Positions 17,551 through 25,607 of a DNA stretch of 25,607 nt are shown piece after piece. Numbering within the stretch: position 1 is the stretch's first letter; every line of letters starts with the position of its first letter. Under the pieces are notes generated by a model. It ran no database searches and was not told the origin of the DNA. It worked only from the letters and a program-made list of their open reading frames with translations. The stretch comes from a virus. A program made the position numbers and the translations under genes. The stretch lies in the IMG/VR virus record IMGVR_UViG_3300043548_000685, positions 1 through 25,607 of that record; one strand, 5' to 3'.

Positions 17551-20361
17551 ATGGCCATCAAGGAACTCTTCTACGACCAGCGCCCCATTGCACTGCTGGA
17601 CCCGAGGGCGTCGCAGCGGATCGATCCTCGGTTTAAGTTCACGCGAAATTCGACGGGAACATATGTGGATCGCGACGGGATTCTTAAAACCGCAGAAGCA
17701 GGTAAACCCAGATATGAATATGATTATGCGAGCGGCAATTTCAATGGACTCCTTGTGGAGCCAAGCTCTACTAATATAATTAGGAATAGCTCCGAATTAG
17801 ATAATGAAACCAGATGGGTAAAAGAATTTGTCACTGTAACCGCAAACAACGCAGCTGCACCTGACGGGACCGTGACAGCAGAAAAGATAACAGAAACAAA
17901 TGTTTTTAATAGTCATTATATGTACAATGAAACGTCGGGAGCCACTAGCGGAACCAAATATGTAATGTCAGCGCATTTTAAGCGAGGAAACGGCAGATAT
18001 GTGGTTTTAGCAGACAGAGGAGACCAAGCCTGGCACGTAATGACGTTCGACTTCGATACCGAATCAGTAGTTCACTCTGTGAATACCAACTTTACAGGAG
18101 TGCGAAAACTAGCAAACGGCTGGTTCAGATTGTACTTCGGCGCTACGCGAACAGGATCACAGTCCTTCTACGCGCTATCTATAGCGGGAGCAGTCGATCC
18201 AGGCAACCTAAATGTACCAAGCTATCAAGGCGACACAAGTCGCCATTTTTACGCTTGGGGAGCGCAGGTTGAAATAGGCACATCACTTTCGTCTTATATT
18301 CCAACCACTTCAGCGGGAGTTACTAGAGAGGCAGATCTGCTATCTGTCGATTCTGTCAGTATCCCATCTAATGGATCAATCTACATTGACGCCCAAGCCA
18401 CAAGCACGGCGCCGAACAGCTCCCTTATTTCCCTCAAAAACGCCTCCAACCAGAAGATCAACCTGGCCATGGAGCAGCGCAGCGAGACATACAACAGCCT
18501 CGCGCTGATCAACACTTACAGCGGCACGGCCAAGTCCTCCCTGCCTCTCCCCGTACCAACCACCAACCGAGAGCGCAACATCATCACCTGGGGCGCCAAC
18601 AACTACCAGTACACCAAAGACAGCTCCCGCTTTGCGCCCTCGCTCAGCACCTCAGTTCCGGCCAACCTCACTTCCCTCTCGATTGGCCACGACTCGGTAG
18701 ACCCGACGAAGGCGTTTAACGGCTACATCAATAGCGTCTACCTCTACAGCGGTGAAATCGCTCCTGCTGTCGCAGAGGCCCTGGTCCGCGGCGAACTCAA
18801 CCCGGTGAACGCCGACACCTACAGCCCCTCCGGCCCCGCTGGCTCCCTGGCGCTGGTGATCAACACCCAAGGCGCTTCTGCCTCGGGTGACAAGGTCTTC
18901 GCCCTGCCAGCCGAGAGCGCCGCTAACGACAACGACCTCGTCATCACCTGGGGCGACGGCACCGAATCCGCCCTCGAGCTCGCCGCTGCCGAGGTCGGTG
19001 CCGCCGGCCTGTCCCACACCTACCCCTCTGCCGGCATCTACCCCGTGTGGGTGGCGGGCAAGATGCAGAACCTCTACTTCAACAACAGCGCCAGCGCGCC
19101 GGATCTCCTGCGCATCGCGTCCTGGGGCACTGGGCAGATGTTCACCTCCCCGAGCACGATGAACTCGGCGTTCTATGGGTGCTCACAGCTAACGAGCATT
19201 TCAACTAATGGGCTGCCCAATACAAATACAGTAACGGATTGGTATCGAGCATTTAGAGGCTGTAGCTCACTAGCAGGAACCTTCCCTTCGTTTACCTTTA
19301 GCGCAGCAACAACACTTAACGAAGCATTTCTCGGCTGCTCTGCACTAACTTCTTTTCCTGACTTAGGTAACCAAACGCAGAATGTAACGAATTTTATCGA
19401 CACTTGGAACAGTTGTTCCAGTCTTACTAGCTTTCCGCTAATTAATACAGCAGCTGGAACGAACTTTGCATCCGCATGGCGTAGCTGCTCCAGTCTTACT
19501 AGTTTTCCTCTCATTAATACAGCAGCTGGGACTGATTTTACATCCGCATGGCGTAGCTGCTCCAGTCTTACTAGTTTTCCTCTCATTAATACAGCAGCTG
19601 GGACGAATTTTACATCTGCATGGTTACAATGCTCTAACCTAACTAGTTTTCCTCTTATTAATACAGCAGCTGGGACGAATTTTACATCTGCATGGTTACA
19701 ATGCTCTAACCTAACCAGCTTCCCCCTTATCAACACCGCAGCCGCGACAACCTTAGAGTCTACTTGGCACAGTTGCATCAGCCTTACTAACTTCCCCTCT
19801 ATAAACACAGCAGCGGTAACAAACTTTAGACAAGCTTGGTATAACTGTACCGGTCTGACAAGCTTTCCACAACTAAACACCTCGTCAGGTGTTAATTTTT
19901 CTTATACCTGGTACAACTGCCCTGCGCTCACGGCCTTCCCACTTATCGATACATCATTGGCCACGACTCTTTATGGGGCTTGGTATAACTGCAGCACTCT
20001 AACCAACTTCCCTTCTCTGATATTTACTTCTTCAGTTACTGGCAACGCTACAGATCCCCCGAGTGCAGCTTCTGGTTTTGTCTCAAGCTGGGAAAACTGT
20101 TCGTCACTCACGAATTTTCCGGCCAATCGTTTCAACAACGTAACAAACTGCAATCGATTCCTCGAAGCTTGGACCGGCTGTGCCTTAACCGCTCAGTCCA
20201 TCGAGAACATCCTGGTCAGCATCAACGCCGCTGGCACCAGCAACGGCAACCTCGGAATCGGTGGCGGCACCAACGCAGCCAAGACCACCTGGTCCACTGC
20301 TGCCAACACCGCCTACAACGCCCTGGTCGCTCGCGGCTGGACGATCACCTTCAACGCCTGA
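17551..20361 (+). CDS. Tail fibre with lectin-like N-terminus and BspA-type leucine-rich repeat array
   Basis: The 936-residue protein is a clear mosaic. Residues about 15-77 carry the attachment module common in phage tail proteins (LLDPRAS, IDPRFKFTRNSTGTYVD, GLLVEPSSTN). Residues about 80-260 look like a carbohydrate-binding beta sandwich, and about 265-410 like a second, LamG-like one. A PKD/BspA-like segment with WGDGT and HTYPSAGIYPVW follows near 470-500. Residues about 535-880 hold roughly 13 repeats of about 24 residues (pattern W-x-x-C-x-x-LTSFP-x-I-N-T), the BspA/DUF285 leucine-rich type. The ending, ALVARGWTITFNA, is typical of such surface proteins. Low-GC blocks cover about 17640-18360 and 19190-20160. 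The likely role is host-surface recognition. Confidence 0.78.
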   Translation: MAIKELFYDQRPIALLDPRASQRIDPRFKFTRNSTGTYVDRDGILKTAEAGKPRYEYDYASGNFNGLLVEPSSTNIIRNSSELDNETRWVKEFVTVTANNAAAPDGTVTAEKITETNVFNSHYMYNETSGATSGTKYVMSAHFKRGNGRYVVLADRGDQAWHVMTFDFDTESVVHSVNTNFTGVRKLANGWFRLYFGATRTGSQSFYALSIAGAVDPGNLNVPSYQGDTSRHFYAWGAQVEIGTSLSSYIPTTSAGVTREADLLSVDSVSIPSNGSIYIDAQATSTAPNSSLISLKNASNQKINLAMEQRSETYNSLALINTYSGTAKSSLPLPVPTTNRERNIITWGANNYQYTKDSSRFAPSLSTSVPANLTSLSIGHDSVDPTKAFNGYINSVYLYSGEIAPAVAEALVRGELNPVNADTYSPSGPAGSLALVINTQGASASGDKVFALPAESAANDNDLVITWGDGTESALELAAAEVGAAGLSHTYPSAGIYPVWVAGKMQNLYFNNSASAPDLLRIASWGTGQMFTSPSTMNSAFYGCSQLTSISTNGLPNTNTVTDWYRAFRGCSSLAGTFPSFTFSAATTLNEAFLGCSALTSFPDLGNQTQNVTNFIDTWNSCSSLTSFPLINTAAGTNFASAWRSCSSLTSFPLINTAAGTDFTSAWRSCSSLTSFPLINTAAGTNFTSAWLQCSNLTSFPLINTAAGTNFTSAWLQCSNLTSFPLINTAAATTLESTWHSCISLTNFPSINTAAVTNFRQAWYNCTGLTSFPQLNTSSGVNFSYTWYNCPALTAFPLIDTSLATTLYGAWYNCSTLTNFPSLIFTSSVTGNATDPPSAASGFVSSWENCSSLTNFPANRFNNVTNCNRFLEAWTGCALTAQSIENILVSINAAGTSNGNLGIGGGTNAAKTTWSTAANTAYNALVARGWTITFNA
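19411..19770 (+). repeat. Five tandem 72-bp units coding the leucine-rich repeats
   Basis: Units begin at 19411, 19483, 19555, 19627 and 19699, each exactly 72 bases (24 codons). Units 2 and 3 differ at only a few bases; units 3 and 4 share their second halves, and the first half of unit 5 nearly repeats that of unit 4. This is recent duplication by slippage or recombination, and in-frame gain or loss would lengthen or shorten the fibre without breaking it. Flanking repeats have diverged further. Confidence 0.9.
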
Positions 20362-20885: not shown

Positions 20886-21383
20886 CTAGCTCAGCGTCAA
20901 CGTCGTTGAGCGCAGCGCCCCATCCGCCCCGCGCATCCGGATCTTGAGCTGCGTGTCCGACACGTACTCAAAATTGATCTCCTTGGATGCTCCGGGCGGA
21001 TTTTGCGACGGCAACAGCACGGCCACCTCATCCAGGAACGCCATGCGCCCGAGCATGTGATTCACCGAGATCTGATTCGGATCCGTCCCAATATCCACCT
21101 GCGACACGAAGGGGTAGTACGTCCCTCCGTAGCTCTCCGTGGAGTTCAGCGCCAGCTGCACCGAGCCCGTAAACGTTCCACCGCTCTTGGGCATCGCCGC
21201 CGCAGCCGCAGCAACCGTCGCCTCTCCACCTATCTGAACAATACTTGCAGTACCGCTGACTTCTTTTCTAGTAAATAGCTTCGCATCTGTCGTATTAAGA
21301 CCTAGCTCACCAAGACTCAAATCACTTGTCGTAGGAACTTTACCAGCAACTGCCGACTTTTTAATCTTTACTGGATTGGCCAT
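20886..21383 (-). CDS. Short tail fibre protein on the opposite strand
   Basis: This 165-residue protein starts MANPVKIKKSAVAGKVPTT, an N-terminus widespread in phage fibres (x-IKxKRSxVAGKxPTxxDLxxGELxxN). It has an alanine-rich linker around residues 54-64 and a C-terminal part with GTDP and MLGRMAFLDE (bases 21027-21059), related to the end of the 1,175-residue fibre. A good AAGGAGA Shine-Dalgarno lies at 21391-21397 on its strand. It is transcribed against its neighbours and so needs its own promoter upstream of 21384. The first ~55 codons are AT-rich and the rest abruptly GC-rich, suggesting a fusion of two sources. It may be an alternative or accessory fibre. Confidence 0.75.
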   Translation of the reverse strand: MANPVKIKKSAVAGKVPTTSDLSLGELGLNTTDAKLFTRKEVSGTASIVQIGGEATVAAAAAAMPKSGGTFTGSVQLALNSTESYGGTYYPFVSQVDIGTDPNQISVNHMLGRMAFLDEVAVLLPSQNPPGASKEINFEYVSDTQLKIRMRGADGALRSTTLTLS

Positions 21384-23937: not shown

Positions 23938-24075
23938 TCAGCCGAACTCCGGCCCAGGATCACGCCCGGTCATCACCACCGCAACCGCTCTTCGGTAGAA
24001 CGAGCAGTCGGTCTTCCCTGCCTTCTCCAGAGCGGCCTTGACCTTGGCCCAATTCTCCCGAGTGCGGTCGTCCAT
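23938..24075 (-). CDS. 45-residue ORF coupled to the endolysin
   Basis: This short ORF starts at an ATG at 24075-24073 that overlaps the endolysin stop (TGATG on the minus strand) and ends at the TGA at 23940-23938, converging exactly on the fibre gene. The product begins MDDRTRENWAKVKAALEKAG, has a central CSFYRRAVAVVM and ends GRDPGPEFG. It is amphipathic with no membrane segment. It is too short to be certain, but the coupled start, tight packing and even composition argue that it is translated. It could be an endolysin partner or regulator. The family is unknown. Confidence 0.55.
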   Translation of the reverse strand: MDDRTRENWAKVKAALEKAGKTDCSFYRRAVAVVMTGRDPGPEFG

Positions 24076-25229
24076 CAGTACACCCACTCAGCAGCAGGCC
24101 GCGCCCCGGCCCCGGGCACGAAGCCTCCGCCTCCGCGCGTGTCGAGATGAATGAACCCCCGAGGACGGCCATCGCCTAGCCCGCCAGTCCACCGATGCCG
24201 GATCCACTGGTAGAAGCTCTCCAGACTCCGGTCAACCGGATAGATGTCAAACGCCTCCCCGCTGACGTGCCTCGAACCCGGCACTCCGCCCACCTCACCA
24301 TTGATGGGCTCCGGCCTGTAGAAGCTCGTCACCCCCAGCGGCCGCCCCCACGCTTCCCGCACCCGCTGAAATTCTGCAGCAGTTCGCAGCAGTCGCGTCC
24401 GAACCGAAGCCGCCGGCCCGGGCACACGCCGCTTGTCGAACTGCAGGATCTCCCCCACGCTGAGGTTGGGCGTCACCAGGCAGTTGAAGTCACTCCAGTC
24501 GACCTCTGCCCGCATCGCCTCACCCGAGCCCACGACCTTCCGCCAGTGCGGCTCAAACAGGAACCAAGTCCCACCGCCTGAGGCCAACTCCACCCGAGCG
24601 TGGCCATCAGCAGCAACCTCGGAGTATGCAACGACTGCATAATCCCGCCCCTTCGGGCAGTACACCTTCTCCTTCTCCCCGAGCTCGGCTGCTTGCACCG
24701 GCTCCTTCTTCAGCCACGTCGCCTGCACCGCCTCGACGCGATACAGAATCGGCTTGGGGTTGGCCTTGATCACGGGCGTGGCCGGCTTTTCCGCCTTCGC
24801 TTCGTTCTCGTCGCAGATGCGCAGCAACTTCTCCGCATAGGCCGGATCCGTCGCGTAGCCCTGCTTGACCAGCTCCTTAGCCGCCGCCTCGAGCGTGGGA
24901 GCCCGATCCACCCCCTCGTACTTGTCCCAATCCTTGTACCACCGGGTCACGAGGTAGCGGACGCAAGCCCCAAGGTCGGGAAAGTCCAGGAAGTCCGCTT
25001 CAATGTGAACCCTGGCGCCGTTGACGTACTCGGTGGTCATCCGGGTCGTGCCCGCCCCCTTCAGCCCGAAGTAGTTGTTCCTGCCGCTGGTGTGCTTCCC
25101 ATAGCCCGACTCCAACGCCCACTGCGCCGCGACAAGCTGGACCCACTTCGCCCCTGCATCCTTGGCCGCCTGCGTGACCCCCTGCCAGGTATTGGGGTAG
25201 TTCTTTGCCCTGCTGCCGGCCATTCGCAT
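24075..25229 (-). CDS. Modular endolysin: GH73-like glucosaminidase, SH3-like domain, M15 peptidase
   Basis: The protein is 384 residues from the ATG at 25229. The frame also has ATGs at 25271 (398 residues, start overlapping the 18-bp integrase-arm repeat) and 25223. Numbering is from 25229. Residues about 10-125 match a glucosaminidase (GH73/FlgJ-type) domain, with the likely catalytic Glu in WALESGYG (E40) and NNYFGLKG. Residues about 162-231 form a cyanobacterial-type SH3-like domain (KEPVQAA, EKVYCPKG, WFLFEPHW). Residues about 250-384 are an M15 peptidase with SRHVSGEAFDIYP (H321, D328) and FIHLD (H361) as zinc ligands. Cutting both sugar and peptide bonds would release progeny. It is on the strand opposite the tail genes, next to the attachment site. 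No signal peptide is evident, so a holin is needed. Confidence 0.85.
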   Translation of the reverse strand: MRMAGSRAKNYPNTWQGVTQAAKDAGAKWVQLVAAQWALESGYGKHTSGRNNYFGLKGAGTTRMTTEYVNGARVHIEADFLDFPDLGACVRYLVTRWYKDWDKYEGVDRAPTLEAAAKELVKQGYATDPAYAEKLLRICDENEAKAEKPATPVIKANPKPILYRVEAVQATWLKKEPVQAAELGEKEKVYCPKGRDYAVVAYSEVAADGHARVELASGGGTWFLFEPHWRKVVGSGEAMRAEVDWSDFNCLVTPNLSVGEILQFDKRRVPGPAASVRTRLLRTAAEFQRVREAWGRPLGVTSFYRPEPINGEVGGVPGSRHVSGEAFDIYPVDRSLESFYQWIRHRWTGGLGDGRPRGFIHLDTRGGGGFVPGAGARPAAEWVY

Positions 25230-25251: not shown

Positions 25252-25269
25252 GGTCCACAAATGGTCCAC
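25252..25269 (+). repeat. Arm-type direct repeat, left copy
   Basis: An 18-bp sequence, GGTCCACAAATGGTCCAC, consisting of two GGTCCAC units 11 bp apart (one helical turn). The identical 18 bases recur at 25495-25512 on the other side of the tRNA fragment. Short, helically phased tandem repeats on both sides of a tRNA-type core are characteristic of integrase arm-binding sites. Integrase binding is inferred. Confidence 0.7.
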
Positions 25270-25326
25270 ATTCTTCGCTTCAGAAAAACGAGATCAGCTA
25301 TCGCAAGGGTTCTCGGGATATATCAG

Positions 25327-25384
25327 ACGGTCTTGAAAACCGGCGAGGTGAAAGCCTCCGTGGGTTCGAATCCCACCCTCTCCG
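25327..25384 (+). other. Attachment-site core: 3' part of tRNA-Ser(UGA)
   Basis: The sequence contains the anticodon stem-loop (stem CGGT at 25328-25331, loop CTTGAAA at 25332-25338, anticodon TGA at 25334-25336), a class II variable arm (GAGG...CCTC around 25345-25358), the T arm (GTGGG-TTCGAAT-CCCAC at 25360-25376) and the 3' acceptor strand CCTCTCC plus discriminator G to 25384. The D arm and the 5' acceptor strand (expected GGAGAGG) are missing upstream, so this is not a working tRNA gene. It is the piece that rebuilds a host tRNA-Ser when an element integrates at the anticodon loop. No CCA is encoded. Confidence 0.85.
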
Positions 25385-25393
25385 TTCCAACCA

Positions 25394-25413
25394 GGGCCTG
25401 AAATCTCAGGCCC
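25394..25413. repeat. Perfect 8-bp inverted repeat after the tRNA fragment
   Basis: GGGCCTGA (25394-25401) pairs with TCAGGCCC (25406-25413) across an AATC loop, nine bases after the tRNA end. There is no T run on either side, so it is a weak intrinsic terminator candidate; it might instead be part of the host-derived sequence downstream of the tRNA or a DNA-binding site in the attachment region. Confidence 0.6.
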
Positions 25414-25494
25414 CAACTGGCGCTTCACCAATACGAGGGCGTGCGCCCTTCCCTGGCCCTTCGCGTTGATTCGCACCGTTGCGCGTGGGAAAGT

Positions 25495-25512
25495 GGTCCA
25501 CAAATGGTCCAC
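25495..25512 (+). repeat. Arm-type direct repeat, right copy
   Basis: This is an exact second copy of the 18-bp repeat at 25252-25269, here extended to TGGTCCAC-AAA-TGGTCCAC. It ends four bases before the integrase ATG, so integrase bound here would cover its own translation start region and probably influence its expression. Confidence 0.7.
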
Positions 25513-25516
25513 GCTC

Positions 25517-25607
25517 ATGCTTGACCTGGCTCCTGTGAACGAAAACCTCCGTTCTCGGGGGCTCCGGATGCTGATCGAGCAACGCCGCCAGGCGCTTGTC
25601 GTGCGAG
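25517..25607 (+). CDS. Tyrosine-recombinase integrase, N-terminal fragment (runs off window)
   Basis: Only 30 codons are visible from the ATG at 25517. The peptide contains LAPVNENLRSRGLRMLIEQR, which I recognise as the start of cyanobacterial tyrosine-type integrases. An in-frame GTG at 25493 and the open frame further upstream offer other starts, but the motif normally lies within a few residues of the N-terminus. The context is decisive: a tRNA-Ser attachment core lies 130 bases upstream with repeats on both sides. The enzyme would integrate the element into the host tRNA-Ser gene. There is no Shine-Dalgarno in the expected place. The catalytic domain is outside the window, so integrity cannot be judged. 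Confidence 0.65.
   Translation, partial: MLDLAPVNENLRSRGLRMLIEQRRQALVVR

Follow-up and report, generated by a model that had tools for sequence, protein, structure and literature searches.

The window analysed here, a 25.6-kb IMG/VR record, is a linear fragment whose right end cuts into a tyrosine integrase gene (Table 1). Between this gene and a minus-strand endolysin gene on its left, two exact copies of the 18-bp repeat GGTCCACAAATGGTCCAC flank the 3′ part of a tRNA-Ser(UGA) gene. Each copy, hereafter arm, holds two GGTCCAC units at a pitch of 11 bp. The left arm lies upstream of the endolysin gene, ~30 bp from the start codon, which was placed at about position 25223 on the basis of a MAG start conserved among relatives; 4 bp separate the right arm from the integrase ATG (25517). 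The original prediction had described the locus in these terms, with identical two-unit arms around the 3′ part of tRNA-Ser(UGA), a lysis gene on one side and the integrase on the other, and every element of that description held.

Table 1. Features of the att region at the right end of the window.
Feature	Position	Strand	Basis
Endolysin (glucosaminidase and peptidase M15)	24075..25223	-	Pfam PF01832 and PF08291; PHROG endolysin
Left (endolysin-side) arm	25252..25269	+	GGTCCAC at 25252 and 25263; exact copy; kept in relatives
attP core: 57-bp 3′ part of tRNA-Ser(UGA)	25328..25384	+	Identical in complete tRNA-Ser(UGA) genes of five host genomes
Probable crossover segment CGGTCTTGAAAACCGGCGA	25328..25346	+	Sole stretch common to G072 attL and attR
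Right (integrase-side) arm	25495..25512	+	GGTCCAC at 25495 and 25506; exact copy
Start of tyrosine integrase gene	25517..25607	+	Contig end cuts gene; full gene in overlapping contig

No further match to GGTCCACAAATGGTCCAC was found in the window when up to three mismatches were allowed, and none of 100 shuffles yielded two copies of the 18-mer. The longest direct repeat of the 408-bp att region was 18 bp, the maximum in 300 Markov shuffles being 13 bp. The identical 18-mer does occur as a single copy in two other IMG/VR contigs (L005 and L009), where it sits within an unrelated integrase ORF; we took these matches as chance. They could be cited in favour of an accidental repeat in the window as well, but that explanation is contradicted by the shuffles and by the conservation described below, and its probability is negligible.

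The core comprises, in order, the anticodon loop CTTGAAA (25332-25338), the variable arm, the T arm and the acceptor 3′ strand. ARAGORN found no complete tRNA in the window, and the sequence upstream of the core is not a tRNA 5′ half. As host genomes we searched 400 genomes from the family to which the Synechococcus sp. UW140 MAG belongs. The exact 57-bp core was present in five of these, always inside a complete tRNA-Ser(UGA), which is the host counterpart that had been proposed as a check. Identity between phage and host begins, on the left, at 25328, and GGTCCAC was not found within 300 bp of the five host cores. A core match in L096 was rejected as an att site; it belongs to a complete phage-borne tRNA-Ser within a tRNA cluster. 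Directly past the tRNA 3′ end the window carries an inverted repeat, GGGCCTGAAATCTCAGGCCC (25388-25440), which is similar in relatives and is perhaps a phage-supplied terminator for the restored tRNA.

Relatives were recruited by an exact 18-mer search of IMG/VR. The order endolysin, arm, core, arm, integrase was common to seven contigs representing six distinct phages, in which phage genes lie to the left and right of it. One contig, G002, matched the window at 99.99% identity over 7973 bp and runs on past the integrase into phage replication genes; G001, G003, G006, G007 and G009 displayed the same arrangement at 69-92% DNA identity in the att region. The left arm of G001 is the same as that of the window and reads CGGTCCACAAACGGTCCAC in G003, G006 and G007, and the right arm is kept in G001, G002, G003, G006 and G007. 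To the right of the integrase follow KilA-N, DNA polymerase and a primase region, then ThyX and a sigma factor, with terminase, portal and capsid genes farther round the genome. G007 also has a tRNA-Arg(ACG) beside the endolysin (L016:11469-11540) and a tRNA-Met elsewhere, neither of which was found in the window.

These relatives bear on the idea of a dead remnant of nested elements, in which attL and attR of different islands have come to lie side by side. Islands do collect at tRNA genes, and some integrated ones carry related integrases (see below), but the arms are identical, the core is exact, a tRNA 5′ half is lacking and the gene order is kept in six phages despite their divergence, flanked left and right by phage genes. 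Two signs of such nesting had been named in advance, host genes past the integrase and a full tRNA as a boundary of the element. Neither was found: G002 runs on into the region of DNA polymerase and primase, and the phage records with this att contained no complete tRNA-Ser. A remnant of this kind is thus extremely improbable.

The two ends of G007 (70,476 bp) repeat each other directly over 484 bp at 97.1% identity, and the join between them is crossed by both G001 and G002; we therefore read G007 as a circular map of ~69,992 bp. This map contains a single core match, one att and one integrase. Since a prophage would be interrupted at the core, one att on a circular map, flanked by phage genes, indicates an attP in free phage DNA, in agreement with the intact, unintegrated attP of the original prediction. 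The junction of two tandemly integrated prophages would also read arm, core, arm, with the same sequence as attP, and the window alone is only a linear fragment. Tandem elements do exist at tRNA-Ser: in the cyanobacterial genome G072 attR is immediately followed by the start of an integrase-like ORF (MLSDKAIQALRPDPERPG...; C1 ~412,200), which suggests tandem islands. However, G007 forms a closed map in which att and integrase each occur once, and the IMG/VR records found with exact arms and core, which come from several metagenome samples, are all attP, with no attL or attR form among them. We consider a tandem junction very unlikely.

Integrated relatives were found in the 400 cyanobacterial genomes. 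The closest integrases include those of G072 (72% identity), G010 (66%) and G198 (65%), all of which adjoin a complete tRNA-Ser(UGA); integrases of 37-47% identity lie at tRNA-Ser(UGA) or tRNA-Arg(CCT), or have no tRNA within 1.5 kb. In the UW140 MAG a 65%-identical integrase directly follows a complete tRNA-Ser(UGA), and on the other side are host genes, by inspection prfC-like and ribonucleotide reductase-like. Elements in G072, G198 and G055 carry a complete tRNA-Ser, an arm and the integrase at one end and an arm with a tRNA 3′ fragment at the opposite end. The distance to this second tRNA 3′ copy is 35.9 kb (G072), 21.1 kb (G198) and 18.3 kb (G055), and the second arm immediately precedes the copy. 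The arms thus stand at opposite ends of the element, as had been anticipated for integration, and rejoining the host flanks yields an intact tRNA-Ser. In the variable arm the two tRNA 3′ halves of G072 diverge, and CGGTCTTGAAAACCGGCGA is all that they share; the crossover was therefore placed at the anticodon loop, and CTTGAAA is likely to form its 7-bp overlap.

No integrated copy of the window's own phage was found in these genomes, and a search of IMG/VR by arm and core revealed no integrated forms either. When the joined G072 flanks were used to search other genomes for an empty site, only the tRNA matched, with no long flank match. A tblastx comparison of the window with the host elements returned low-complexity noise only and was left unused. 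More distant integrase matches, typically of ~30% identity and ~390 amino acids, bring the number of host-family genomes with a match to 354 of 400; they look like a widespread cellular tyrosine-recombinase gene.

The arms of these elements are built from different words repeated at the same 11-bp pitch, each word being the same in both arms of its element: GGTCCAC in the window group, GGCTCAC in G072, GGTCAAG in G198 and AGGCTCA in G055. The word of G009 is GGTCCAA, with a degenerate left arm, and the one available arm of G010 contains TTAGGCCACC. In five of five elements the right-arm word matched the left arm of its own element best, a result equalled by at most 1 in 2000 shuffles. As few elements were available and the word was picked by eye from repeat-finder output, this co-variation is supporting evidence, not formal proof. 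Such a repeat was found upstream of most integrases with ~35% identity or more, usually with an 11-bp and in some cases a 10-bp pitch, compared with 10 of 745 background 200-bp windows. On the simplest reading, the repeats are arm sites of the integrase and change in step with it. The swapped arm words would then constitute natural mutants for integrase specificity.

The repeats could instead be operators at which a repressor controls the divergent endolysin and integrase genes. Their closeness to both start codons fits such a role. This explanation does not account for the constant position of the repeats relative to the core in elements with both arms, for the co-variation of the word within each integrase's own element, or for the retention of the left arm at attR of integrated islands, far from the integrase. 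Moreover, autoregulation by the integrase through its arm sites, known for KplE1 intS (PMC2951348), would account for both roles. Operators in place of arm sites are accordingly quite unlikely.

The integrase (P0001) is 376 amino acids long in relatives (full gene, L014) and was not recognized by Pfam. Among 15 homologues, PF00589 matched eight weakly (best E 0.0045), and the PHROG integrase match had an E value of 0.0026; searches of NCBIfam, PDB profiles of solved structures and INPHARED phages gave no match. In an alignment of the 15 homologues, from which L095 (31% identity) was left out since the translated stretch contained a stop, R226, R326, H349 and Y358 are invariant and K247 nearly so, and the first histidine of the HxxR motif is replaced by tyrosine. 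Arm-binding domains have a strand-strand-strand-helix fold. This arrangement was predicted for residues 18-72, mostly at high pLDDT, in a structure model that is weak as a whole (mean pLDDT 64; catalytic half of low confidence). The top fold matches were TelA, lambda integrase and XerA, all weak, with lambda Int and XerA ranking second and third at E of about 0.02.

A gene for a ~90-amino-acid HTH_17/MerR-like protein adjoins the integrase and is conserved in phages and islands; its product is a candidate excision factor. The gene (L022:5043-5318 and equivalents) is oriented opposite to the integrase in the window's group (G001, G002 and G007) and in the same direction in G006, G009, G072 and G198.

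Taken together, we put the probability at roughly 0.94 that positions 25252-25512 constitute the intact attP of an uncultured tailed phage of Synechococcus-like cyanobacteria, in its non-integrated form, with putative integrase arms and tRNA-Ser(UGA) as its target. This assignment draws directly on the sequence and its conservation, the host core match, the split arms of integrated relatives and the co-varying words. Protein binding and strand exchange are inferred: the N-terminal domain of the integrase would hold both outer repeat pairs, and its C-terminal catalytic domain would recombine the anticodon-loop segment of attP with the same segment of the host tRNA-Ser(UGA). On integration the phage copy would make the tRNA whole again, and the arms would come to lie at opposite prophage ends. 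Arm-bound integrase probably also represses its own gene, because the right arm ends so close to its start codon, and the HTH_17/MerR-like protein may act in excision.

More broadly, we see a little better than an even chance that the integrase represents a picocyanobacterial tyrosine-recombinase family that is nearly invisible to models and common to phages and islands. In such a family the arm word would be free, the 11-bp pitch and spacing would be fixed, and the tRNA-Ser target would be fixed in the subgroup nearest the window. The paired changes would then make the N-terminal recognition code readable from sequence alone.

Anticodon-centred sublocation 'A' is an established class of tRNA integration sites (Islander, PMC4383910). 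Like sites of this class with a lambda-type arm and core layout, the attP carries a tRNA 3′ part with the probable crossover at the anticodon loop, would restore the tRNA on integration, and has direct-repeat arms on both sides and an adjacent integrase. In contrast to them, the integrase hardly matches library models, and the arm words vary at a constant 11-bp pitch. The att site is ordinary in type; what makes it of interest is the uncultured cyanophage group together with the co-varying arms. As in KplE1 of Escherichia coli, the promoter of the integrase would lie within reach of the att region and overlap it; for intS, negative autoregulation has been shown, and it is predicted for the gene order tRNA then integrase (PMC2951348), but host and integrase are unrelated in detail here.

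Among cyanophages, the T7-like S-TIP37 and P-SSP7 also have an integrase and an attP matching a host tRNA gene; they target tRNA-Leu, not the tRNA-Ser(UGA) of the window, and integrate without becoming stable lysogens (PMC8776855). Membership of the T7-like cyanophages was rejected on the basis of the tRNA-Ser core and of a tape measure, major tail, portal and terminase of another type. The nearest isolate found was Synechococcus phage S-CBS4 (capsid protein 56% and portal 38% identical), with a genome of 69.4 kb versus ~70 kb here; like every INPHARED record, it lacks a match to the integrase. The cyanosiphoviruses S-LBS1 and P-SS2 likewise have an integrase and a proposed att site, in S-LBS1 a 14-bp motif inside coding genes (PMC6157547) and in P-SS2 a 53-bp match to non-coding host DNA (PMC2784084). 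In Synechococcus RS9917 a tRNA-Ser bounds a relic prophage island (PMC2784084), which is possibly related.

In marine picocyanobacteria intact prophages have been reported absent, and in tests to date T7-like cyanophages integrated but formed no stable lysogens (PMC8776855). The portal of G007 matched one of the 400 genomes, G198, in which a portal fragment of ~53% identity lies between attL and attR of the 21-kb element at tRNA-Ser. This element, which also carries the integrase and a primase-region homologue, is a prophage remnant, and the fragment therefore indicates that related phages did integrate here. The G072 element was rejected as an intact prophage, no structural genes being recognized among its 10 proteins, and a complete prophage of the group with structural genes was not found in the 400 genomes. 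For this uncultured cyanophage group there are now near-complete free genomes with a complete attP, an integrase and a candidate excision factor, exact attB sites in host genomes of a named family, and at least one prophage remnant at the predicted tRNA-Ser, which together make integration in the group directly testable.

The window also covers a tail-fibre-like region. A large ORF (17551-20361) contains internal repeats with a 72-bp period (19400-19880), the number of which varies among relatives. Within this plus-strand region lies a minus-strand ORF (20886-21383) whose start (MANPVKIKK...) resembles that of plus-strand ORFs (MANPVRIRR...), and which is perhaps an inverted or exchanged fibre segment.
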